Shown here: one piece after another, positions 48,772 to 61,642 of the stretch | How positions within the stretch are numbered: the first letter of the stretch is position 1 | Layout: the number at the start of each line of letters is the position of its first letter | Origin: Arthrobacter sp. CDRTa11 | Lineage (GTDB): Bacteria > Actinomycetota > Actinomycetes > Actinomycetales > Micrococcaceae | Direction: 5' to 3' | Assembly: GCF_026427775.1 (NCBI RefSeq) | Contig: NZ_CP044532.1 | Coordinates: 4,836,001-4,900,000, forward strand | Length of the DNA: 64,000 nucleotides | Notes under the pieces: model-generated | What the model was told of the DNA's origin: nothing | Databases searched by the model: none | Seen by the model: only the letters and a program-made list of their open reading frames with translations | Program-made: the position numbers and the translations under genes

Positions 48772-49812
48772 CTACCCCTCGGCCTTACCCTGCCGCCAGT
48801 ACCCCATGAACGCGACCTGCTTCCGGTCGATCCCCACGTCCCGCACCAGGTACCGCCGCATGTCCTTGATGACCGCGGCCTCGCCGGCGATCCAGGCGTA
48901 GAAGGGCATGGCGCCGGCAGGCATGTCGGGGTTCTTCGTGGCTTCGATCTCGGCTGTTTCCATCCGGGCGGGAGTCTCCCAGAGGATGTCCACGTCCACA
49001 TTGACGTCCTCGGGCTCGGGGCCGGCGCCGCCGTCGGACTCCTTAATACCCACCCATCCGGGAACCGGAATTGCCTGGCGCACTGCCTGCTGCAGCAGTT
49101 CGCCGTGCGGCCGGGACCGTCCGATGGCGGCGCCCCGGGCCAGCCAGGTGATCTGGACGTCGGCGGCGGTCTTAAGGTCCAGGAAGTCACCGGCCTGCGG
49201 CACCTCAAGGAAGGCGTGGCCGCTCATGTACGAGGGCAAGTTCTCGAGGATGGCGGAGATCGCTGGAATGGCTGTCTCATCGCCGGCGAGAAGGACACGC
49301 TGGGCCATTCCCGGCCGCCATTCGATGCCCGAGTAGATCTCGGCAGTGACGCAGTGCGCGGCGCGGTTGTTGGGGCCGATGATGGTGATTGCGTCGCCGG
49401 GCTTCGCGTTGAGGGCCCAGTGGGCGGCCGGGCCGCCATGACCGTGGTCGTCGAAGTGCATCACAAAGTCCACGTCGATCTCGGGGTACACCGAATCCAG
49501 CCGTGACTGGCGAACGGTGTAGGTCCGCATGGAGCCGCGGACAGCAGGGTCCATCGCCAGCCATTCGCGGTACCAGCCGGACTCGGCCATTTCGAAGACG
49601 GGCAGCGGAAGCTGGGTGCCGTCCTCGGCCAGGGACGGGATCATGAGCTTGATCCGAAGGTCCATGGTGTCGCCGTGGACACCGAAGTCGCGCAGGGAAT
49701 AGCCGCCGAAGGTTACGCGGCGGAAATTGGGGCTGAGCTCCTGCACGGAGGAAACCGTCACTTCAAATGCCAGGGTCATGGGTTCGGTGGAGGCAACATC
49801 GCGGGTCTTCAT
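48772..49812 (-). CDS. Siderophore-interacting protein (FAD-dependent ferric reductase family)
   Basis: A 346-residue SIP-family protein that likely releases iron from ferric-siderophores by NAD(P)H-dependent reduction. The FAD-binding barrel includes LSPNFRRVTFGGYSL and RTYTVRQSRLD (the RxYTxR flavin motif), and FVMHFDDHGHGGPAAHWALN; the reductase part has VLLAGDETAIPAISAILENL and ends FMGYWRQGKAEG, the usual YWR(Q/R)G C-terminus. It is the last gene of the iron operon; its ATG overlaps the ATPase stop (ATGA). Confidence 0.93.
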   Translation of the reverse strand: MKTRDVASTEPMTLAFEVTVSSVQELSPNFRRVTFGGYSLRDFGVHGDTMDLRIKLMIPSLAEDGTQLPLPVFEMAESGWYREWLAMDPAVRGSMRTYTVRQSRLDSVYPEIDVDFVMHFDDHGHGGPAAHWALNAKPGDAITIIGPNNRAAHCVTAEIYSGIEWRPGMAQRVLLAGDETAIPAISAILENLPSYMSGHAFLEVPQAGDFLDLKTAADVQITWLARGAAIGRSRPHGELLQQAVRQAIPVPGWVGIKESDGGAGPEPEDVNVDVDILWETPARMETAEIEATKNPDMPAGAMPFYAWIAGEAAVIKDMRRYLVRDVGIDRKQVAFMGYWRQGKAEG

Positions 49813-50636
49813 GAAACAAACTCCAGTTCGTTGACGGCGTCATGGGCAGCGGCGTGGTGGCGGCCGATGGGGATGATCAGGGGTGTTCCCGAAACAGGAT
49901 CGGGAATCACGCGAGACTCCAGTCCGAAGACTTTGCGGACCAGTTCCTCAGTGACAACGTCACCGGGGGCGCCCAGCGCCACCACCTCGCCGCCCTTCAT
50001 GGCGATGACGTGGTCCGCATAGCGGGCCGCCAGGTTCAGGTCGTGCAGGACGATGGCCACCGTGGTGCCGCGCTGGCGGTTCAGGTCCGTGACGAGGTCC
50101 AGGACTTCCACCTGGTGGGCGAGATCCAGGTAGGTGGTGGGCTCATCCAGCAGCAGCACCTCGGTTTCCTGCGCCAGCGCCATGGCGATCCACACGCGCT
50201 GACGCTGCCCGCCGGACAGTTCGTCCACGTTCCGGCTGGCTAGTTCAAGCGTTTCGGTGGCTTCCAGCGCACGCTGCACGGCGGCGTCGTCCTTCTCAGA
50301 CCAGCTGCGGAAGAAGCCCTGGTGCGGGTACCGTCCCCGGCCTACGAGGTCACGGACGGTGATGCCGTCCGGAGCCGTGGGGTGCTGCGGGAGGAGGCCC
50401 AGGGTGCGTGCAAGTTCGCGGGCCGGCCGGGAGTGGATGTCCTTGCCGTCGAGCGTGACTGAACCGGCCGCGGGTTTGAGGAGCCTGGACAGGCCGCGGA
50501 GCAGCGTCGACTTTCCGCACGCGTTGGCGCCCACGATCATGGTCACCTTGCCCTCGGGGATTTCTGCCGTGAGGCCGTCCACCACGCAGCGCTGGTCATA
50601 TTTGAGCGTGAGGTTCCGGGCGGTCAGAACTGCCAT
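49809..50636 (-). CDS. Iron-siderophore ABC transporter ATP-binding protein (FecE/FepC-like)
   Basis: A 275-residue ABC ATPase: Walker A GANACGKST, Q-loop LLPQHPTAPDGITV, signature LSGGQRQRVWIAMALAQE, Walker B VLLLDEPTTYLD and switch His in VLHDLNLAARY. The DEPTTYLDLAHQ form is typical of the iron-siderophore subclass. The open frame starts at 50690, but ATG at 50636 is preferred: AAAGGA lies eight bases upstream and the protein then begins MAVLTARNLTLKY. It starts one base after the permease stop. Confidence 0.94.
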   Translation of the reverse strand: MAVLTARNLTLKYDQRCVVDGLTAEIPEGKVTMIVGANACGKSTLLRGLSRLLKPAAGSVTLDGKDIHSRPARELARTLGLLPQHPTAPDGITVRDLVGRGRYPHQGFFRSWSEKDDAAVQRALEATETLELASRNVDELSGGQRQRVWIAMALAQETEVLLLDEPTTYLDLAHQVEVLDLVTDLNRQRGTTVAIVLHDLNLAARYADHVIAMKGGEVVALGAPGDVVTEELVRKVFGLESRVIPDPVSGTPLIIPIGRHHAAAHDAVNELEFVS

Positions 50637-50637
50637 G

Positions 50638-51750
50638 TCAGGCATCCTTTCGGTTGGCCGTGACCAGGAGCCACAGCAGGAACGGGGCACCCAGCGCCCC
50701 CGTGATCACGCCAACGGGCAGCACGGTGCCATCCAGCAGCAGGGGGGCGATGTTGGCAGCGAAATAATCCGCCGCCAGGACAATCAGGGCACCCACAAAG
50801 GCCGACGCCGGAAGGCTGGCTTGGCGGGTAAAGCGGCGGGCGATGGGACCGGCAAGGAAGGCGACGAACGAGACCGGGCCTGCTGCCGCCGTCGCGACCG
50901 CTGCCAAAGCGACGGCGGTGATGATCACTGCCAGGCGGGTGAACCCCACGCGGATTCCTAATCCTGCTGCGGCGTCATCGCCGAGTTCCAGGATGCGGAG
51001 CGGACCGGCCAGGGCCACCACAGCGGGAACCAGGATCAGGAGCGAGAGCGCCAGCACGCCGGAGCGTTCCCAGTTGGCCGAGTTGAGTGAGCCGTTGAGC
51101 CAGACAAGGGCATCTGCAGCCGTCCGGATGTCCGCCCGCGTCATCAGGAAGCTGACAACTGCGTGCAGTGCGGCGGCGATGCCCACGCCGGCCAGGATGA
51201 GTCGGTTGCCGGCCGCGTTGCCGGTGTTGCCGCCACCTGTTCCAAGGGAGCCGCCGCGGGAGATGGCGTAGATCAGGGCGGCCACGCCCAGCGCGCCGCC
51301 CAGGGCTGCACCAGAAACGGCAGCGCCCGAGGCCCCGAAGATGACAATCGACGTCACCGCCGCCGCACTGGCGCCGGACGTAATGCCGATGACGTCAGGG
51401 CTGGCCAAGGGGTTGCGAAGCATGGTCTGGAAGAGGCCCCCGGCAAGACCAAACGCGGCGCCGATCATGGTGCCGATGACCGCGCGGGGTAGTTTGTTTT
51501 CCATCACAATGAAGCTGGCGCCGGGGATCTTTTCACCGCCGGTCAGGTGGGCGATGACGATTCGGAAGAAGTCCGGGACCGTCACCGTATAACTGCCCAG
51601 CAGAACGTAGGCGGCGAAGAGCGCCACCACACCGATGGCAAGTATGGGTGTGCGCCACCCGCGCTGCGCTATCAGATATGGCTGCTTAGACGGTGTTTTG
51701 GGGACCGGAAGTGATAGATCAACGGGGTGGTTGGTTTCGGTCAGGCTCAC
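50638..51750 (-). CDS. Iron-siderophore ABC transporter permease (FecCD family), second
   Basis: A 370-residue membrane permease with about nine or ten helices. RAVIGTMIGAAFGLAGGLFQ and MLRNPLASPDVIGITSGASA are the BtuC/FecCD signature, and LELGDDAAAGLGIRVGFTRL is the loop that contacts the ATPase. An N-terminal cytosolic stretch of ~35 residues precedes the first helix. It overlaps the first permease by 4 bp and forms a heterodimer with it by family precedent. Confidence 0.93.
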   Translation of the reverse strand: MSLTETNHPVDLSLPVPKTPSKQPYLIAQRGWRTPILAIGVVALFAAYVLLGSYTVTVPDFFRIVIAHLTGGEKIPGASFIVMENKLPRAVIGTMIGAAFGLAGGLFQTMLRNPLASPDVIGITSGASAAAVTSIVIFGASGAAVSGAALGGALGVAALIYAISRGGSLGTGGGNTGNAAGNRLILAGVGIAAALHAVVSFLMTRADIRTAADALVWLNGSLNSANWERSGVLALSLLILVPAVVALAGPLRILELGDDAAAGLGIRVGFTRLAVIITAVALAAVATAAAGPVSFVAFLAGPIARRFTRQASLPASAFVGALIVLAADYFAANIAPLLLDGTVLPVGVITGALGAPFLLWLLVTANRKDA

Positions 51751-52868
51751 AGCCCTGCTCCCTTCCCGCGGCGGATCAGCCAGACGAAAACGGGCGCACC
51801 CACGATGGCGGTCATGATGCCGGCCGGAACCTCACCGGGCAGCAGCACCACCCGGCCAATGATGTCTGCGGCCAGCAGCAAAGCAGGGGCCAGGACCAGG
51901 GAGAACGGCAGGATCCAGCGGTAGTCCGGGCCGGTGAGGGAACGGACGGCGTGCGGAATGACCAGGCCAACAAAAGCAATGGGGCCGGCCAGGGCCGTCG
52001 CGGAACCGCAGAGCAGGACAATACCCAGCGCCGTGACGCCGCGTGCCAGGCCAACCCGCTGGCCAAGACCGCGCGCAATGTCGTCGCCCAGGGCCAGGCT
52101 GTTGAGGATGCGGCCGGTGAAGAGCACAATCAACGCCCCCACTGCCAGGAAAGGCAGGCCCGGGAGCACCACAGACCAGTCGCGGCCTGCTATCCCGCCC
52201 ACCTGCCAGAAGCGGAACCTGTCCAGGGTGTCCTGGCTGGAAACCAGGATGACGTTCATCAGCGAGTACAGTCCCGCGCTGAGTGCGGCACCAGCCAAAG
52301 CGAGCTTAATAGGCGTCGCGCCGTCCCTGCCCAGGGACGCAACCAGATAAACCACGACGGCGGCCGCTGCGGCTCCGATGAAAGCGAACCAGATGTAGCC
52401 GGTGAGGGAGGAAACCCCGAACACGTAGATCCCGGTGACGACGGCGAGGGCGGCCCCGGCATTCACGCCAATGATTCCGGGATCTGCCAAGGGGTTGCGA
52501 GCCACACCCTGCATGGCGGCGCCGGCCAGGCCGAGGGCGCCGCCGGCGAGCAGTCCCAGCACGGTGCGCGGGATGCGGGCATGGACAACTGCGTGATCGC
52601 CATTGGCCGGATCAAACTCGGCGAGGGCCTGCCCTACGGTGCCCAGGGAAAGGCCGCGGGCGCCGATGGCCAAGGAGAGGGCTGTCAAAAGGGCAAGTAC
52701 GACGACGGCGGCAATCAGCCAGGCGGCCTGCGTGGTTCTGGTTTTTCCGCCTTCGCGGACCCCGCCACCGGCGCGAACTGGCAGATAATGCCGTGTTTTT
52801 GCGGTTTTGGGGGCATTATCTGCCAGTTCGCGCACAGTGGAGGGCGCCGTCGTCGTACTTTCCGTCAT
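51747..52868 (-). CDS. Iron-siderophore ABC transporter permease (FecCD family), first, with in-frame palindromic insert
   Basis: A 373-residue FecCD permease: RIPRTVLGLLAGGALGLAGA, MQGVARNPLADPGIIGVNAG and LALGDDIARGLGQRVGLARG are family motifs. Residues ~13-33 (ELADNAPKTAKTRHYLPVRA) are encoded by a 63-bp palindromic element (52771-52833) that is exactly 21 codons, so the frame is kept. The cytosolic N-terminus before the first helix is therefore unusually long. No start codon is obvious after the element, so ATG 52868 is kept; its ribosome-binding site is weak. It follows the binding-protein gene by 10 bp. Confidence 0.92.
   Translation of the reverse strand: MTESTTTAPSTVRELADNAPKTAKTRHYLPVRAGGGVREGGKTRTTQAAWLIAAVVVLALLTALSLAIGARGLSLGTVGQALAEFDPANGDHAVVHARIPRTVLGLLAGGALGLAGAAMQGVARNPLADPGIIGVNAGAALAVVTGIYVFGVSSLTGYIWFAFIGAAAAAVVVYLVASLGRDGATPIKLALAGAALSAGLYSLMNVILVSSQDTLDRFRFWQVGGIAGRDWSVVLPGLPFLAVGALIVLFTGRILNSLALGDDIARGLGQRVGLARGVTALGIVLLCGSATALAGPIAFVGLVIPHAVRSLTGPDYRWILPFSLVLAPALLLAADIIGRVVLLPGEVPAGIMTAIVGAPVFVWLIRRGKGAGL
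52771..52833. repeat. 63-bp perfect palindromic element inside a permease gene
   Basis: Two perfect 22-bp arms (52771-52792 starting GCGCGAACTGG, and 52812-52833) around a 19-base loop rich in T and G. It is more A/T-rich than its surroundings and lies within the first 35 codons of the FecCD permease. Its form suggests a small dispersed palindromic repeat or MITE-like insertion. Confidence 0.85.
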
Positions 52869-52878
52869 GGGACAGTGC

Positions 52879-53982
52879 TTACTTCACTGCACCGGTGACT
52901 TTATCCGCTGCGCTCGCAAGCTGCGGCAGGAACGTGTCCAGTGACCACGGCAGGCTCAGCGGGGAGGATGCGGAGATGGACAGCGTGAGGGTGTTGTCCG
53001 AATCTGCAACAAGGCCGCCCTTTTTGATGGCCGGGATCTGGCCGAGCAGGGGGTCGGACTTGATGGTGTCGGTGGTGGCGGCGTCCGGAACCCAGGTGAC
53101 GAAGATGTCCGAGTCAAGCTCGTTGGCCTTTTCCGCAGACCACGGAAGGAAGAATTCCTTGGAACCCTTGGAGTTGTCCTCCACAACAGAAGCCAGCTTC
53201 ATGCCGATCTCGCTCAGGAAGCGGGGGCGGTTGTCATTGGCGGTATAGACGTTGACGCCGTCAGCCGAGGCGGGTTCCAGGTTGCCGTAGATGAAGGTCT
53301 TTCCGGCGATCTGCGGGAACTTGGCGACCTTGTCCTTGATGGTGGACTCGGTGTCGGCGATCAGCTTGGCGGCCTCGGCGTCCTTGCCAAGGGCCTTGCC
53401 AATGATGGAGGTGGAATCCTGCCAGGAGGTACCGTACGCCAGCTCCGGGTGCGCAACCACGGGGGCGATCTCGTTCAGCTTCTTGTAGTCCTCTTCGGTC
53501 AGCCCTGAGTAGGCGGCCAGGATGACGTCCGGGGTGAGCTTGGCGATTTCGGTGAAGTTGATGCCGTCAGTCTCGGAGTACTGGACGGGAGCCTTGTCTG
53601 AGCCGAAGCCTGCACCGAGCTTTTCGAGGGCTGCGTCCTTCCAGGGCGTGGAGCCCTGGTCGTTCCCGCCCCATTCGTTCTTCGGGAGTCCAACCGGGAC
53701 CACACCGAGGGCGATGGAGACGTCGTCGTTGACCCAGGAAACGGTGGCCACGCGCTTGGGCTGTTCCTTAATGGTGGTCTCGCCATAGACGTGCTTGATG
53801 GTGACGGGGAACTGCGAGCTGCTGGCGCTGGAGGTGCCGGCATCTGTGGCAGAGGACGCAGGTCCTGTGGAGCAGGCAGTCATGGTGAGCGCCGCGGCGG
53901 CCAGAACAGCTGATGCCTTGCCGGCCGACTTGAACAGCGTGCGGCGGGTGGCACTTGGGCCGGAGAAAAAGGGGGAAGTCAC
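52879..53982 (-). CDS. Iron-siderophore ABC transporter substrate-binding lipoprotein
   Basis: A 367-residue exported binding protein of the FepB/FhuD type. The N-terminus has a Tat-like motif (TRRTLFKSAG), a hydrophobic stretch and a lipobox ALTMTACS with Cys37 as the lipidated residue. The mature protein has EQPKRVATVSWVNDDVSIAL and the helical-backbone class III fold segments (LTPDVILAAYSGLTEEDYKK, PVVAHPELAYG). AAGGAG precedes the ATG. It is first in the operon, with a DtxR-type box upstream, so iron-repressed expression is expected. Ligand: a ferric siderophore, type unknown. Confidence 0.94.
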   Translation of the reverse strand: MTSPFFSGPSATRRTLFKSAGKASAVLAAAALTMTACSTGPASSATDAGTSSASSSQFPVTIKHVYGETTIKEQPKRVATVSWVNDDVSIALGVVPVGLPKNEWGGNDQGSTPWKDAALEKLGAGFGSDKAPVQYSETDGINFTEIAKLTPDVILAAYSGLTEEDYKKLNEIAPVVAHPELAYGTSWQDSTSIIGKALGKDAEAAKLIADTESTIKDKVAKFPQIAGKTFIYGNLEPASADGVNVYTANDNRPRFLSEIGMKLASVVEDNSKGSKEFFLPWSAEKANELDSDIFVTWVPDAATTDTIKSDPLLGQIPAIKKGGLVADSDNTLTLSISASSPLSLPWSLDTFLPQLASAADKVTGAVK

Positions 53983-54168: not shown

Positions 54169-54909
54169 CTATGCGTAGGAGATGCTCATCAGGAGCGTCC
54201 TGAGTGACTGGCCTTCCTGGCCGGCGAGCCAGGACTTGGCTGCATCCTCGCTGGCAAAGGGGTTGTCAATGAAGTCAACCTCGGCGATGAGGATGCGGTC
54301 GCCAATCCGGATGATCCCGCCCAGCGCCATCTCCGCTCCGGCTATGGGCGCCCCGGGCGTCAGGTGCATCCGGTACGTGGAAATGTCGTTCACCTTGTCT
54401 ACGTAGAAGGAGTAGTGGGCAGCCGGGTCGGGCTGTTCCTGAAGGCCTGGAACCGGCACCGATTCGAAAACCGTCCGGGTGACAGGACTGCTGACGCCAT
54501 CGGCAATCTCTCCCGTATATATCTCAGCCTGCCTGGCCCCGCTCGCGTCGTACACGGTGGCCGTGCCCACAAAGGGCGAGGCTGATGCTTCAAACAGCTC
54601 CACCCGCCAGTCCGCCGGGTATTTAAAGGACAGCCTGCCGTCGGGGAACGTATACGTCGCCAGCCCGGTCGGAACGGAAGTGGACGACGGCGGTGCTGTG
54701 GCCGCCGTCGGGCCGGCAGTGTTCGCACCCGGGATGGCGTTTGATGATGAAGGCGGAGCGCTTGACGAGGCTGCCGAAAGACTGGCCGGGGCGGAAGCTT
54801 CCAAACCCGGGGCTTCCGAACCGGCAGTTGAGGCGTTGGCCATGCAGCCGGTCAGAGCGAGGGTGGCTGTGGCAAGGACAGCAAAAAGACGTGCTTGTGC
54901 TGGGCGCAT
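54169..54909 (-). CDS. Hypothetical lipoprotein
   Basis: A 246-residue protein with a lipoprotein signal (RLFAVLATATLALTGCM, lipidated Cys22), then about 60 residues of Ser/Ala/Pro/Thr-rich linker that probably spans the wall, and a C-terminal globular domain starting ATYTFPDGRLSFKYPADWRV, reminiscent of PsbP/LpqN-like lipoprotein domains. Function unknown. It lies downstream of the Jet operon on the same strand but 212 bp away with no coupling; the gap 54910-55121 has no other gene. Confidence 0.82.
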   Translation of the reverse strand: MRPAQARLFAVLATATLALTGCMANASTAGSEAPGLEASAPASLSAASSSAPPSSSNAIPGANTAGPTAATAPPSSTSVPTGLATYTFPDGRLSFKYPADWRVELFEASASPFVGTATVYDASGARQAEIYTGEIADGVSSPVTRTVFESVPVPGLQEQPDPAAHYSFYVDKVNDISTYRMHLTPGAPIAGAEMALGGIIRIGDRILIAEVDFIDNPFASEDAAKSWLAGQEGQSLRTLLMSISYA

Positions 54910-55121
54910 TGATGGTGCCTTTCAGGAAAAGCCCCTCGGACTCGGCCGGCACTCAGCGGGACCCAGCGTTCCGCGGCACCTTGGGGGAGGATCAGGGCGA
55001 GGTGTTTGATGCCCACCAGAATGGCAGCCAGACAGCACCTTCCACTAGGGTTTCGGCAATATCTCCATCGATTTGTTATATAAACAACACTGACCGCCTC
55101 GGCGCATGGAAACGAGGTGCG

Positions 55122-58100
55122 TCAACGGAGCACAATGTCCACCGGGTTGGCTTCAGAACGCCAGGCGCCGGAGGAACCCTTCGAAGTGTTGATTACGGGA
55201 GCGGTCAGCACACCGGAGCGGTTGGTGCGCTTATCCCGCAGAATCTCCGTCACCGAGCCCAAGTGCCGGGAGAGGTCGATAACGTTCTCCGGGGCAGCAA
55301 GCAGTAGCTGGAAGCCGAACTCGTGAAGGGCCTTGATACCCGCGCCGGCAAACTCCTCCGAGGCCAGGACAAATGCCTCGTCCATCATCACCGTGCCATA
55401 CGTGGTGAAGCCCTGTTCCGCTATCCCCAGCTGGTAGCTCAGCGCCGCGGCCATGATGAATGCCGTGAACCTCTGCCGCTCACCGCCGGACATGGAGCCG
55501 GTGTCTGCGTGCATGTAAATGTCGGTCTTTTTCGCGTCGCCGTTCCGGCCCTTTGTTTCTGCCTGTCCTGCAACTGCCTGTCCTACAACCGCCTGTCCCA
55601 CGGCTGTCTCCGCCGCGAGGTGGCGATGTTCCTTGCACTGGATGAACAGGTGCCCGCGCACGTCCAGCACCTCCGCCCGCCATCGCCGGTCCTCCGGCGC
55701 CTGCGAGCTGAGCCGTTTGACGAGGGTCTCCAGCGACTTGTAGCGGGTGGTTAGTTCGCCGTCGTCGGATCCGTCGGGTTTACCCGGACGGGTGTGGCGC
55801 GCCTTCAACGCATTCTGGATCGCGTCCTTGAACTGCTTTGCCGTGGCCGGCAGGGTCTGCTTGATGTCCAGTTCCAGGTAACTGCCTTCATGGAAGTTCA
55901 CCTGCGACAGGATGCCGTTCAGCGGCAGGATGCGGCTGGTGATGGCCCGTCGTTCCTCGTCCAGCAGGTGCAGGAGGGTGCTAAAGGACTCGTGCGTGCG
56001 CTGGTTGAAGAACTGCCGGAACTCCGCTTCCTGAGAGGGAAGGCCGTCGCTCACAATCGCGTGGTACCGGGTTTCGAATTCGCCGGCTGCGCCGATGGAT
56101 GTGCCATGGTCCGCGGAGATCGCGGTTCCCCACTCCCGCACAAACCCCTCAAAAATCCGGGTCAGCCGCTCTGAGGTAGCCTGCCCGCTCGATTCAGCGG
56201 CATGCAGCTCGCCCAGGAGTACCGTTCGTACCCGGTTGGCCAGGTTGTCCAGCTCATGCATCTCCGTGACGTCACCAAACCCGGTGAAGTACGGTTCCAG
56301 CGCCTTGACGGTGGCCTCCGACGGCGGCGCCTGGTTCAGGCGGGCGCGGGCAGCTTCCAGCAGGGAATCGGCGGCGCTCATCTGCCGGTCAAGCGCCTTG
56401 TATTCGCTTTGCAGGACTGCAGCCGCCTCCGTGCTGGACTGGTGTTTCCGGCGCGCCGTTTCGATGTTGGCACGCAGTGGCTCCAGGTCCGCCTGTGCGG
56501 CCAGGGCGTCCTTGAGCCGCTGTTCAATCCTGCCGAGTTCCTCTGCGGCCACGGCTGCCGAGACCTGTTCCCATGGCCGGTGGTCTTCGGCGATGCGCCG
56601 CAGGGCCTCGAGCTGGCGGCTCATGCCCTGGTGCGACTCCTCGCGGCTTTGCGCCAGCTCCGCTGCCTTGGACAGTTCCTGCTGCAGATCCTCCACCTGC
56701 GCAGCCACCAGCTCCAGCTTGGACGCGTTGTCGAACCCGAGAACGTAGTCCTGCCGGCTGGTGAAGCGGTCATCCTTCTCCACCGTGTGGCGGTTGCGCT
56801 TAACCACCCCGCCCAGGCTCAGGCCCTTGTCCAGCGCTGCCAGTTCATCCGGGTCCTCGACGCACGGGAAGGCGAAATCGAGGGCGATCCGCTCCCGGAT
56901 CCACGCCCCGGCGTCTGCGGCGGCATTAGTGGTGAGGATGTCCAGCTTGGTCAGCAGATCGCCGTCGCGCACGTCCTCTACCGCCGGCGCTCCGCCGGGC
57001 AGCGGCTTCGACACGTCCACTGCGCGCAGGGCGCCACGGACAGTGTTGTCATTGAGGTAGCGGGTCACCGCCGCGAAATGTTCGCCCGGGACCAGCAGCG
57101 TGGTGGCAAGGTTCCGGAGTGCGCGCTCTGCGGCAGGCCGCCACCGCTCCTCCCCCTCGGCGAGGTCGATCAGCTCGCCGCCGAACGGCATCCGCTCCTC
57201 CGGAACGCCGGTGGCTGCTGCTATCGCTGCCCGGTTTTCAATGCTCGACGGCGGCAGCAGGGACTTGCGCGTTTTCAGCGACACCAGCTCCTGCTGTGCT
57301 GCCGCGAGTTCACGTTTTTTGGTGGCGTGGCCGTCAAAGGCCTCAAAGCGAAGTTCCTGGAGCGCCTTCGAATCGTCCTTCAGCTCAGCTGTTCGGGCCT
57401 CCGCCTGCTCGTGGGCCTGTTCCCAGCCCTCTGCTGTCCATTCAAGCTGCAGCCCGGCGTCGGCCAGGGCTTTCCGGGCGGCTTCCTCCACCTGTTCACG
57501 GAGGCGCAGCCCTACCTGGGCATTTTCCAGCGACTGCTCAATGGCGGAAATCGCGTTGCCGCCCTGGTTGTTGTAGTCGGTCTCCAGCTGGCGCAGTTCC
57601 TTGGCCAGTCCGTCACGCACCGCCCGCTCCGCCCCGAGCTCCTTGGCCTTTTCCTGGGCCAGCTCCTTGAACCGGGCCAGGGTCTTTTGGTGCACTGCTA
57701 CGGAGAGCTGCTGCTTATAGGCATCGAATTCCTCGCCGGCCAGGTCGCGGAGCCGGTTCGCGTCCAGCAGCGACTGCGCGTACTCCTTGTTCAGCCCGGG
57801 CACCGGTGCCAGCTGATCACGTTGCTGCCGCACGTCCTCCAACCGCTGCCGGATGGACATCAGGTTGCTGAATTCCTCCACCACGTCATCGGCAGCCGCG
57901 AGGGTGCCCGGGGCGTCCAGGACCTGTTCCCGGAAAAAGGTGTTGACGCTGCCGCCCAGCCCTTTACCGGCCTGAATCACACGCAGGAGGGGCAAAGCCT
58001 GGTCCGAGCTGATGCCCAGCAGGCGCCGGAAGCGTTCGGCGAAGGCCTTGTGGACATCGAAGATCTGGGCGTCCGGGAAGATCGTCTCCAGCGCCGCCTT

Positions 58101-58622
58101 GGTGAAGCGCTTCTCCGCAATGTCCTCGACGGCGGCCAGGTCCAGCGGCTTGCCGTCAATCACGTAGAAACGGCCGACGCTGGATTCCGTGCCGTTCTTG
58201 GGCAAGTCAAAGAGTGCCGACACCGTCACCCGGGTACCGGCAGCGTTATCGAACGTCAGGGCCACGGCGGACCACGTGGCACCCGGGCGCTGGAAGGCAC
58301 TTGCCGAGCCCTCGCCCACGGCCTTGTCGCCCACTTTTCCGCGCATGTACGTGAAAGTGGTCCTCTTGTCCTCCACAGCACCGCCCGCACGCTGGGCCGC
58401 CGCCTCATTAGAGCGCGGCCGGGCATCGAACACGCGCAGCATCGCATCGAACAGCGTGGATTTCCCCACGCCGGAGTTGCCCGTCAGCAGAGTGCCGTTG
58501 CGGTCCACGTGCATCGTGTGGGCTCCATGGAAAGTGCCCCAATTAACCACCTGGACCAGGGCAAGGCGCATCTGCCCCGGGTTCGTGAGCTCGCCCATCG
58601 GCAGCATGGTTGCGATGCTCAC
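55122..58622 (-). CDS. jetC: SMC-like ATPase of a Wadjet/MksBEF-type complex (JetC/MksB)
   Basis: A 1166-residue MukB/SMC-like ATPase. Walker [10 protein letters not shown] at residues 48-56 follows [17 protein letters not shown]; the middle is two long coiled coils around a central hinge-like region; the C-terminal head has signature [20 protein letters not shown] and Walker [15 protein letters not shown], then [12 protein letters not shown]. All ATPase motifs are intact. Near residue ~1030 a small Ala/Gly/Gln repeat ([16 protein letters not shown]), encoded by 15-bp tandem units, lies just before the signature head. By family precedent it extrudes DNA loops with JetA and JetB. It overlaps jetB by 4 bp. 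No jetD follows. Confidence 0.9.
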
Positions 58623-59620
58623 TTGACTTCCTCCGAGGTCGTGGTTGGGTACGACGACGGCGCTGCCGCCCCCGCCCCTCCGCCGGACGGCTCTGCTGCA
58701 AGCAGCAGGCCGTCCGGCTCCGACAGGCCCGATGCCACTCCCTGGGCGGCAGCACCGTCGTCGTCGTTGTTCGCGTCACCTTCGGCGTCGTCCGGTTCGT
58801 CCTCCGGGGGAGTGTCGCCGTCGAGCTCCAGCAGCGCTTCGGTTCCTGTGGGATCTGTGGTTGCCGCTACCAGGGCTTCGATTTGGGCTGGGATGTCGCC
58901 GATGTTTTCGAAGGGCAGTGCCAGCGGGAGGGCGTTGGAGATGGTGTAGACGTCGTCCAGGCCGGTGCTGAGGAGGAGTTGGCGTGCCATGAGTTTGGTG
59001 ATTGCCCTGCTGACCACGTCGGCGTCCCGGAGGGCATCCTGCTGGCCGGCGGGCTGGTAGTGGGCTACCAGGTCTGCGATTTCCTCCCGGGCAATGGTGG
59101 GGTCTGTCTGGGCGGTGACGTGGCGGTCAAGCAGGAGCCGGAGGCGGAGGAGCACGATGGTTTCCACCCGGCTCAGGGCCCGCTGCTGGCGCAGGATGCT
59201 GGAGCGGGTGCCGCCGCCGATGGCCTCGGGGTCAACAGGGCGCAAAACCGCGATCTTGCGTTCATGGTCCATCTGCAGGGTGAGGAAAAGCTCGGACAGG
59301 CGGCTTCGGAGGATCAGTTGGTTGTCCAGGAGCGTCGTCCACAGCTTTTCGTCCCGGCCGCCATCAATGTAAGGACCCTTCAGGAGCTTCACCAGCGCCT
59401 GACGGACCTTCATGGACAGCACGCCGGTATCCCCGGGGAAGAGTGCCGCGCCGTCAACGAACGTGTCCCTGGGGGTCACCGTAAATGGCCGCTCGGCCAA
59501 GGAGCCCGTCTCCAAAGGAACTGGGTCCACAGGAACTGCCGCCTCCAAAGGAACGGCTTCCTCGTCCGGAACTGTCGCCTCTTCAGCGGGGGGCGCCGCC
59601 GTCGTCATTTCTTCAGTCAT
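58619..59620 (-). CDS. jetB: DUF4194 protein, KITE subunit of a Wadjet-type complex (JetB/MksE)
   Basis: A 333-residue protein. Its core (about residues 55-225) matches the DUF4194/MksE winged-helix subunit: [60 protein letters not shown] and [20 protein letters not shown], followed by [10 protein letters not shown]. It bridges the SMC heads and kleisin. Unusual are a Pro/Glu/Val repeat-rich N-terminus ([17 protein letters not shown]) and a ~100-residue acidic, probably disordered tail ([19 protein letters not shown]). It overlaps jetA by 8 bp and jetC by 4 bp, so the three are translationally coupled. Confidence 0.88.
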
Positions 59621-61082
59621 GGGGATCCTTTGCGAGCGTGACCACCGGCAGGTAGGCCGTGCGGGTGGTGCCGTCTATCTGTTCAAAGTCCAGCGCGCCC
59701 CAGGCGTCGCGGTCGAAGTCCGCCCCCGCCTGGAGGGCGTGAGAGAGAAGGGCGCGCATGGTGTTGATGTGACGCTCTTCCGACGGCAGCTGGCCCCAGG
59801 CCTCCGCGAGCGTGGAGGCCCCGGCGACGGCGGCCCTGACAACATCGGGGCGGGCCTTGGCCGTCCTCGGCGAGCGCACACGGTCTGAGTCACTGAAGGC
59901 AATGGGGTCAGCGAGCCTGGGCGGGACAGCGAACTCGTCCGGATCATAGAGCTTAACCATGGCCAGGGATTCAAATCCGGCGTTGTACAGGACGGGACCG
60001 GCCACCAGGCCCGGACGTTCCCGCTCGTACGGCAGGGAACGGATGGCCTGTTCGGCTTCGCGCAGCACTTTCCGGAGCCGTACTGATTGACGGAAGTCAT
60101 CGCTTTGAACGTAGGTGTTCAGGCTCTCGCTGAGCTTGCCGTAGATCCGCTGGATTTGGCTGTGCTGCTGCCGGAGTTCGGCAACCAGGTTCTTGAGGGT
60201 TTCGCGGTCCTCGGGGGACAGGTCGTCAGCGAACTGGCGGCTCAGGACTTCACCGATGGCCGAGCGGAACCTGAGCTGCTGCTGCGGGTCCTCCAGGAAG
60301 GCCGTGAAGGAACGGAAGGTCCTGCCTTCGGGGCTCTGCCGCAGCCTCTTGTCCGCCTCCAGCACCTGGGCCATGGTAGCGCCCTTGCTAAGCGACTCCT
60401 CAATGATCTGGTTGCGCAGTTCGCCCACCAGCTCCTCGATGCGGTCGCGCATCTTTTTGTAGTCAGCGGGCAAGCTGGCGGCCAGGTCCAGGATGTTCCC
60501 GGCGGCTTCTACGGCTTCGTCGTCGTCCAGCAGGCCGTCGAAGTCTCCGGAGCTGATGTCCTGGATCAGCTGCCGGCGGTCTTCGATCTCCTCCTCAAGG
60601 GATTCCAGCCGCGCGCTCTGGTCCGGGTTGGTCTCGTTGGCCAGCTTCTCCACGTCGCCCAGGAGCGTGCCCAGCCGGGACCCGTTCAGGGTGGAGCGCT
60701 CGCTGGACAGGCTGTCCAGAAACGCCAGAACACGGGCCGCTGGTTCCGTGACTTCATAGATGATCTGCCCTGACTGGTTGCGCCGGGTCAGGAACTGTTT
60801 GCGTGTCCATTCATCAGCGTATTTTTTCCCGGAAGGCGTTCCGTTCGCCCCGCCGCCCATCCCCGGTTCCTGGCGCCGCAGCTGCTCAAGGAAGGAATCG
60901 ACGTCGGCATGGAACTCTTCGAGGGGAAGTTGCGGACGGACGCGGGTAAACGAGGCCTGCAGTACGGCGATCACCCAGGGTGCGGAGCGTGTCAGCGCCC
61001 AGGCCGGTCCCTTGGTGAGGAGTTCGAGGTCCCGGAGCCTGGCGCTGATGGCCTCAGCGGATGACCTGGCGGAACGGGGCAC
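59613..61082 (-). CDS. jetA: DUF3375 protein, kleisin subunit of a Wadjet-type complex (JetA/MksF)
   Basis: A 489-residue DUF3375/MksF-like protein. The N-terminus [20 protein letters not shown] and [20 protein letters not shown] is the family's winged-helix start; the middle is helical/coiled ([40 protein letters not shown]) and the C-terminus ([20 protein letters not shown]) resembles the head-binding domain. The start is GTG at 61082, with AAGGAG six bases upstream. It is the first gene of jetABC, as in type I Wadjet plasmid-defence loci. Upstream to 61351 there is no further gene on this strand. Confidence 0.9.
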
Positions 61083-61351
61083 AGATACTCCTTCAGCTGC
61101 ATGGGGGACGGCAGCAGAATCGGAAACTGCCAGCTACAAGGTTAACGCAGCCCGGCGCAGCCCCTAATCAGGCCCCTAATCGGGGGGCTTCCGCAACCGG
61201 CCCGTGACCTACGCCGAGGTAGCATTTCGATCCCGCATCAACACCCTGATCCAACGTTCCGGGTCTGGCAGCGAGCCCCGGCTGCCCCTACGCTCATGCT
61301 ACTGATCCCATCCAGATCTCAACCAAAGTAGAAATCGCAGCAGGGGGAAGC

Positions 61352-61642
61352 ATGCAGTTCGACTTAAGTGCAGTGGAGACAGGCACCATGGTGTTCATCG
61401 GGACCCTGATGTTTGCCCTCGTCCTGCTGGTTTTTGTCCTGACGGCGGCGTTCATCGCCCTTGTCCTGGTGGGTGTAGGCAAGCTCGCCTGGGTCATCCT
61501 GTCCAGCACGTTGCTGGCCGTGGTTCATGGCATTAACCACGGCTGGGACAGGCTGGTGCACCACGCCTCTACGGTGGAGGTATCCGGAGACTTTCAAGGA
61601 CAGCAATCCCCTAGCACCGGTAGCTACCCGCGGGTAATATAG
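61352..61642 (+). CDS. Small membrane protein of unknown function
   Basis: A 96-residue protein with one long or two short hydrophobic segments (VFIGTLMFALVLLVFVLTAA, then IALVLVGVGKLAWVILSSTL) and a hydrophilic C-terminus with two histidines (HGINHGWDRLVHH). A good ribosome-binding site (AGGGGGAAG) precedes the ATG. It is divergent from jetA across a 269-bp gap. No family recognised. Confidence 0.7.
   Translation: MQFDLSAVETGTMVFIGTLMFALVLLVFVLTAAFIALVLVGVGKLAWVILSSTLLAVVHGINHGWDRLVHHASTVEVSGDFQGQQSPSTGSYPRVI

Follow-up and report, generated by a model that had tools for sequence, protein, structure and literature searches.

A window of 64,000 nucleotides from Arthrobacter sp. CDRTa11 (contig NZ_CP044532.1, positions 4,836,001 to 4,900,000), the whole stretch of DNA analyzed here, carries on its reverse strand a three-gene operon, jetABC (55122-61082), that encodes the motor subunits of a type I Wadjet system and has no gene for the nuclease, JetD. 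We read this operon, with a probability of roughly 0.62, as a type I Wadjet motor whose nuclease was lost and which is now a vertically inherited core second condensin, MksBEF-like and placed beside SMC-ScpAB. Directly observed were the gene content, the failure to find JetD, the core distribution, the grouping in a single clade, purifying selection and the lack of a linked effector. Its parts are those of a type I Wadjet motor, its missing nuclease means that it is no Wadjet, and its arrangement is like that of MksBEF.

The genes overlap by 8 bp (jetA and jetB) and 4 bp (jetB and jetC), and Pfam and PADLOC searches confirmed the gene set of the original prediction, a DUF3375 protein, a DUF4194 protein and a MukB-like ATPase. 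In Pfam, JetA matched DUF3375 (E = 6.3e-88) and JetB matched DUF4194 (5.2e-28), in agreement with the profiles anticipated for them, while JetC matched AAA_29 (9e-20) and SbcC_Walker_B (6e-15). The top PADLOC models were all of type I, with 857 bits for JetA1, 513 for JetB1 and 1146 for JetC1. Residues 17-325 of JetA matched the solved JetA chains 8q72, 8dk1 and 8as8 at E of about 1e-23, and JetC matched solved Wadjet JetC chains with a best E of 7.6e-59; a search of the PDB sequences with JetB returned no JetB chain and just two CRISPR-associated proteins, both by chance, and its AlphaFold model was poor (mean predicted local distance difference test score 46). The Walker A, signature and Walker B stretches of JetC, predicted to be intact, are so, and start at residues 48, 1043 and 1078; the same three patterns occur in 76, 77 and 76 of 77 JetC rows from the named relatives described below. 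The genome also encodes SMC (901 bits) and ScpA (173 bits) apart from jetABC.

Table 1. Features of the jetABC locus and its surroundings, in window coordinates
Feature	Position	Strand	Remarks
jetA, kleisin-like subunit, DUF3375, 489 aa	61082..59613	-	GTG start; Pfam, PADLOC, solved chains
jetB, KITE-like subunit, DUF4194, 333 aa	59620..58619	-	Pfam, PADLOC
jetC, SMC/MukB-like ATPase, 1166 aa	58622..55122	-	AAA_29 and SbcC_Walker_B, PADLOC, solved chains, motifs
Ribosome-binding site AAGGAG	61088-61093	-	5 bases 5′ of the jetA GTG; read from the sequence
Conserved block upstream of jetA	61125..61150	-	78-sequence alignment
Lipoprotein-like frame, no Pfam match	54169-54909	-	212 bp beyond the jetC end
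Siderophore-type uptake genes: Peripla_BP_2, two FecCD, ABC ATPase	49809-53982	-	Downstream of the lipoprotein-like frame
96-aa frame with hydrophobic stretch, no Pfam match	61352-61642	+	Divergent from jetA

As originally predicted, no jetD is present in the operon or its flanks, and the whole-genome profile searches proposed at that time have now been run. The host assembly is a single contig of 5,161,232 bp, and in it neither JetD_C (PF09983) nor DUF3322 (PF11795, E up to 10) had a match; the same JetD_C search detected one of 14 control genomes, that of Corynebacterium glutamicum, in which JetD is MksG (PMC10123090). Supply of JetD from elsewhere is thus rejected for the host as assembled.

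The distribution of the operon is that of a core element. DUF3375 was found in at least 119 of the 121 genomes of the genus, and the window's JetC, at E up to 1e-150, in 120 of them, including all 115 good genomes (completeness of 90% or more, contamination of 5% or less); the sole genome without a match of this class is 68% complete (G026). The best five candidates per genome were scored in this search and in the search of the order described below. JetD_C is present in 51 of the 121 genomes and 49 of the 115 good ones, and 66 of the 115 hold the window-class JetC and gave no JetD_C match at an E threshold of 1e-3. Among the matches listed, and judged by eye, a JetA lies within about 7 kb of JetD_C in 44 of the 51 JetD_C genomes, and in the other seven (G018, G027, G064, G065, G068, G078 and G102) JetD_C stands alone and is mostly fragmentary. 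Where both are on the same contig, JetD_C was never less than 900 kb from the window-class jetC (51 genomes, by eye).

JetC matches were single per genome except in G032, G052 and G095, where they are pieces of one broken gene, and 114 of 120 genomes have an open jetC frame of at least 1,151 amino acids, the exceptions being these three together with G025, G029 and G101. In three sequences (locus L227 at 11903, G032:C7 at about 15050 and G095:C1 at about 3620200), jetC is split in two near codons 489-500, where the hinge is expected from the usual SMC layout. In Pseudarthrobacter sp. Fe7 (L244, CP099977) the jetC reading frame shifts many times, a pattern more suggestive of sequencing errors than of decay.

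Pfam scores alone did not separate the JetA classes: among the matches listed, JetD-linked JetAs mostly score 340-475 bits and the window class about 285-311, but the JetD-linked JetAs of G042 and G090 score 301. The classes were defined instead by identity to the window's JetA, by JetC and by trees. A search with the window's JetA gave a match at E up to 1e-3 in 75 of 139 genomes of the family, Micrococcaceae; JetA of the window class (at least 333 bits and 40% identity) is present in 56 of the 139, from 11 of 32 genera, with the next score at 147 bits. JetD_C occurs in 36 of the 139, and in genomes that also have the window-class JetA, the two lie on separate contigs or no less than 450 kb apart (by eye). 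JetA of the window class shares about 22-32% identity with the family's Wadjet JetAs. In a sample of 297 genomes from the order, all 15 JetA matches at E up to 1e-45 fall in the window's family, a threshold at which remoter JetAs of this class outside that family would go unseen. In a sample of 396 genomes from the phylum, 16 gave a JetA match (E up to 1e-20, with the best three candidates scored) and 22 a JetD_C match, 19 of the latter above the Pfam family's cut-off.

Two sets of window-class loci were compared directly: 20 loci from 10 genera of the family (L093-L112), all of which carry jetABC, and 80 named loci, kept from 139 relatives found, with JetA identities of 86-94% and mostly from Arthrobacter, Pseudarthrobacter and Paenarthrobacter. 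All 80 carry jetABC, although one (L191) stops within jetC. A jetD gene or remnant at such sister loci, which would have contradicted the original prediction, was sought, and profiles detected JetD in 0 of the 20 family loci and 0 of the 80 named loci, with flanks of up to 8 kb on each side, while all 20 loci chosen as jetABCD (L113-L132) have JetD, including one with broken frames (L121). In the 20 family loci, tblastn matches came solely from one query, L043, and were positioned in jetC; in the named loci, there were again L043-derived matches in jetC, plus one 59-residue match in L231, about 4.8 kb upstream of jetA. Two further JetD queries also hit 21 of these 59 residues, and the match was taken as chance. 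Neither set of matches was accepted as a jetD remnant. The query L043 (G027:C5) is itself a JetC-JetD fusion, a frame joining the mid-part of a Wadjet JetC directly to JetD, of the kind that an internal deletion might produce.

Trees of JetA and JetC (54 rows each, with L121 of G029 excluded from both and from the Jet profiles for its broken frames) placed the 20 window-class rows in one clade, with support of 100/100 for JetA and a Shimodaira-Hasegawa-like approximate likelihood ratio test value of 100 for JetC, for which a quick method was used. The nearest group in both trees comprises three JetD-bearing loci, L119 and L120 from the window's genus and L159, together with two JetD-free loci, L156 and L158, and the tree program warns that long branches meet where this group joins the window-class clade. 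Locus L158 (family f19) is without jetD while its sister L159 has it; the nuclease may therefore come and go among the relatives L156, L158 and L159. A second nuclease-free jetABC clade (L157 and L160-L164, family f22) was distant from the window's clade in both trees, with no adjoining jetD and no neighbor common to its loci. The JetA of L161 has the same sequence as a Mycolicibacterium rutilum protein, and its closest named relatives belong to Mycolicibacterium and Mycobacterium. The minimum number of changes in JetD state was three on the JetA tree and four on the JetC tree.

The operon is under strong purifying selection. Across the 80 named loci, with 300 random pairs per gene, the median ratio of nonsynonymous to synonymous substitution rates (dN/dS) was 0.085 for JetA (80 rows), 0.159 for JetB (76 rows, the short L184, L185, L186 and L242 excluded) and 0.087 for JetC (77 rows, the short L191, L227 and L244 excluded). 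These ratios are approximate, since the mean proportion of synonymous differences is 0.49 and dS is already large.

Genes around the operon were compared for a replacement effector. Across the 20 family loci (20 kb each, frames of at least 80 amino acids, E up to 1e-12, 8 of the 20 loci listed as reference), no neighbor besides jetA, jetB and jetC was conserved, and the best other neighbor recurs in 10 of the 20 loci among the matches listed. A linked replacement effector was rejected for this reason. The 212-bp gap between jetC and the next frame had been given correctly, and that frame, lipoprotein-like, is present in just 21 of the 80 named loci; it and the siderophore-type uptake genes downstream were taken as ordinary neighbors. 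On the other side, a divergent acyl-CoA dehydrogenase gene adjoins the operon in 78 of the 80 named loci, making the operon syntenic within the genus. The 96-aa frame is present in all 80, and of the 20 family loci the four from the genus alone have it.

Among known systems, the closest is type I Wadjet (JetABCD; EptABCD of Mycobacterium smegmatis, MksBEFG of C. glutamicum), to which the operon is alike in the PADLOC models matched by all three proteins, in the solved chains matched by JetA and JetC, and in a gene order identical to that of the 20 jetABCD loci read. It differs in that no JetD is at the locus and none was found in the genome, and in that it is core, whereas the jetABCD loci of the genus are accessory. 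With MksBEF of Pseudomonas aeruginosa it shares a three-gene SMC motor, no nuclease and a place beside SMC-ScpAB, judged here on SMC and ScpA; it differs in JetB, a DUF4194 protein that reached 22.5 bits against Pfam MksE, under the cut-off of 27. In P. aeruginosa both SMC and MksBEF organize and segregate the chromosome (PMC7485682), and MksBEF has been described as a likely product of JetD loss (PMC10586767), whereas MksBEFG of C. glutamicum, in which MksG is linked through MksF, acts on non-chromosomal DNA only (PMC7083940). In Borrelia, MksB mediates long-range chromosome contacts with neither MksE nor MksF (PMC10406323). The second nuclease-free clade is likewise jetABC without jetD and is, as a separate lineage in both trees, a parallel case.

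On the preferred reading, the operon would encode a complete JetABC-type SMC motor, with ATPase, kleisin and KITE subunits, that works without JetD. Its ancestry would be type I Wadjet-like, the simplest route being that jetD was lost in the common ancestor of a single Micrococcaceae clade, with vertical inheritance as a core operon since then. Wadjet cleavage proceeds by extrusion followed by JetD activation (PMC12647877); here JetABC would load on the chromosome and extrude DNA loops with ATP, and would serve as a second condensin beside SMC-ScpAB, as MksBEF does in P. aeruginosa, instead of in plasmid-cutting defense. The loss of jetD as opposed to its primary absence, the loop extrusion and the chromosomal role are what we infer from the observations above.

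Several points weigh against this reading. As the trees are unrooted, jetD loss is the simplest polarity, with primary absence as the alternative, and as JetB falls under the MksE cut-off, the link to MksBEF is one of analogy; the trees held no P. aeruginosa sequence. A jetD-bearing plasmid could be missing from the one-contig host assembly, and where draft genomes have JetD_C and jetC on differing contigs, the distance between them is not given. Six of the 120 genus genomes are without a single long open jetC frame, and 2 of the 80 named loci have a jetC frame interrupted within the contig, so the operon may be dispensable, although some of these breaks are perhaps sequencing errors. This handful of broken frames also speaks for a decaying Wadjet, in which jetD was lost recently and jetABC is disappearing, an explanation to which we give almost no credence given the low median dN/dS values (0.085-0.16 over 80 loci), the spread over 11 genera and the lack of any jetD remnant found.

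Of the alternatives left by the original prediction, the orphan condensin is favored, while a JetD encoded elsewhere fails for the host and for 66 of the 115 good genomes, and a different effector has no linked candidate in 20 loci from 10 genera. It is unlikely, though to be taken seriously, that JetABC is a motor-only defense that traps or compacts small circular DNA uncut, as has been proposed for Smc5/6 on viral episomes, so that plasmids are silenced or mis-segregated. The close kinship to Wadjet JetABC seen with PADLOC and the compaction of circular viral DNA by Smc5/6 (PMC10586767) are in its favor; the operon is, however, syntenic and found in 115 of 115 good genomes of its genus, in which jetABCD is accessory. 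Core genes are seldom defense genes. A nuclease other than JetD, encoded elsewhere, could partner the motor and make it a Wadjet with another cutter, which we consider improbable: the effector search covered linked genes and not partners in trans, but no neighbor is conserved across the family loci and no JetD_C or DUF3322 was found in the host. That JetD comes in trans from an accessory jetABCD, so that the operon would belong to a Wadjet wherever such a locus is present, appears very unlikely; 49 of the 115 good genomes do have JetD_C, but the other 66, the window's genome included, keep the window-class JetC without it, and the window-class JetA is far from the family's Wadjet JetAs in identity. 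The second-condensin reading is thus preferred to each of these.

An N-terminal IFDR motif of JetB is known to touch JetD (PMC10586767), and its loss was considered as a mark of lost JetD contact. The pattern [IVLM]F[DE][RK] was N-terminal in 0 of 54 JetB rows, nuclease-free and JetD-bearing alike, and had internal matches in two rows only (L132 and L157). Since it is missing from both JetB classes, the pattern is no discriminator, and the idea was dropped. Upstream of the jetA start, nearly all columns from -68 to -53 and from -50 to -43 are at least 95% identical among 78 aligned sequences (L207, L220 and L226 excluded), and the first five bases of AAGGAG are kept in the same alignment. The two near-invariant stretches suggest a kept promoter or regulatory site, as a candidate, upstream of jetA; a sigma-70 promoter scan gave no site at this block, and pattern searches for parS-like sites and LexA-type boxes found none in the window.

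Table 6 of PMC11719660 lists for Paenarthrobacter lasiusi a 5.8-kb JetA-JetB-JetC 'Wadjet' locus and, apart from it, a complete type I JetA1-D1 system, both by PADLOC; judged by content and length, the three-gene locus is very likely the window's operon. That paper counts it as antiviral defense, unlike the reading favored here. For rapid-growing mycobacteria, the top 20 feature domains (Table 3 of PMC10551460) include DUF4194, DUF3375 and AAA_29, and its main text does not name DUF2220 or DUF3322, which fits the second nuclease-free clade. Among open-licence papers, wording on the lack or loss of JetD was found in PMC10586767 only, and no publication title on a nuclease-free Micrococcaceae clade was found; the mycobacterial locus name MSMEG_0370 did not occur among the literature matches listed. 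Within the searches made, two things are new: that a whole Micrococcaceae clade carries the motor as a core operon free of the nuclease, and that the family of Mycolicibacterium offers a parallel case.

By DefenseFinder, Wadjet is present in 42% of actinobacterial genomes (PMC10482375). For the operon described here, the PADLOC label 'Wadjet' is probably misleading. At about even odds, we would extend this to the Actinomycetota: on at least two occasions, in Micrococcaceae and in the family of Mycolicibacterium, a plasmid-defense motor would have turned into a second condensin that lacks the nuclease and is vertically inherited, with the chromosome as its sole substrate, and Wadjet counts that accept jetABC alone would be inflated. 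A clade-wide JetABC without nuclease is a natural separation of the motor from the cutter, and as 44 of the 121 genus genomes (by eye, among the matches listed) also hold an accessory jetABCD-type locus, the two can be compared in soil bacteria. A 'Wadjet' call on jetABC alone need not imply plasmid defense.

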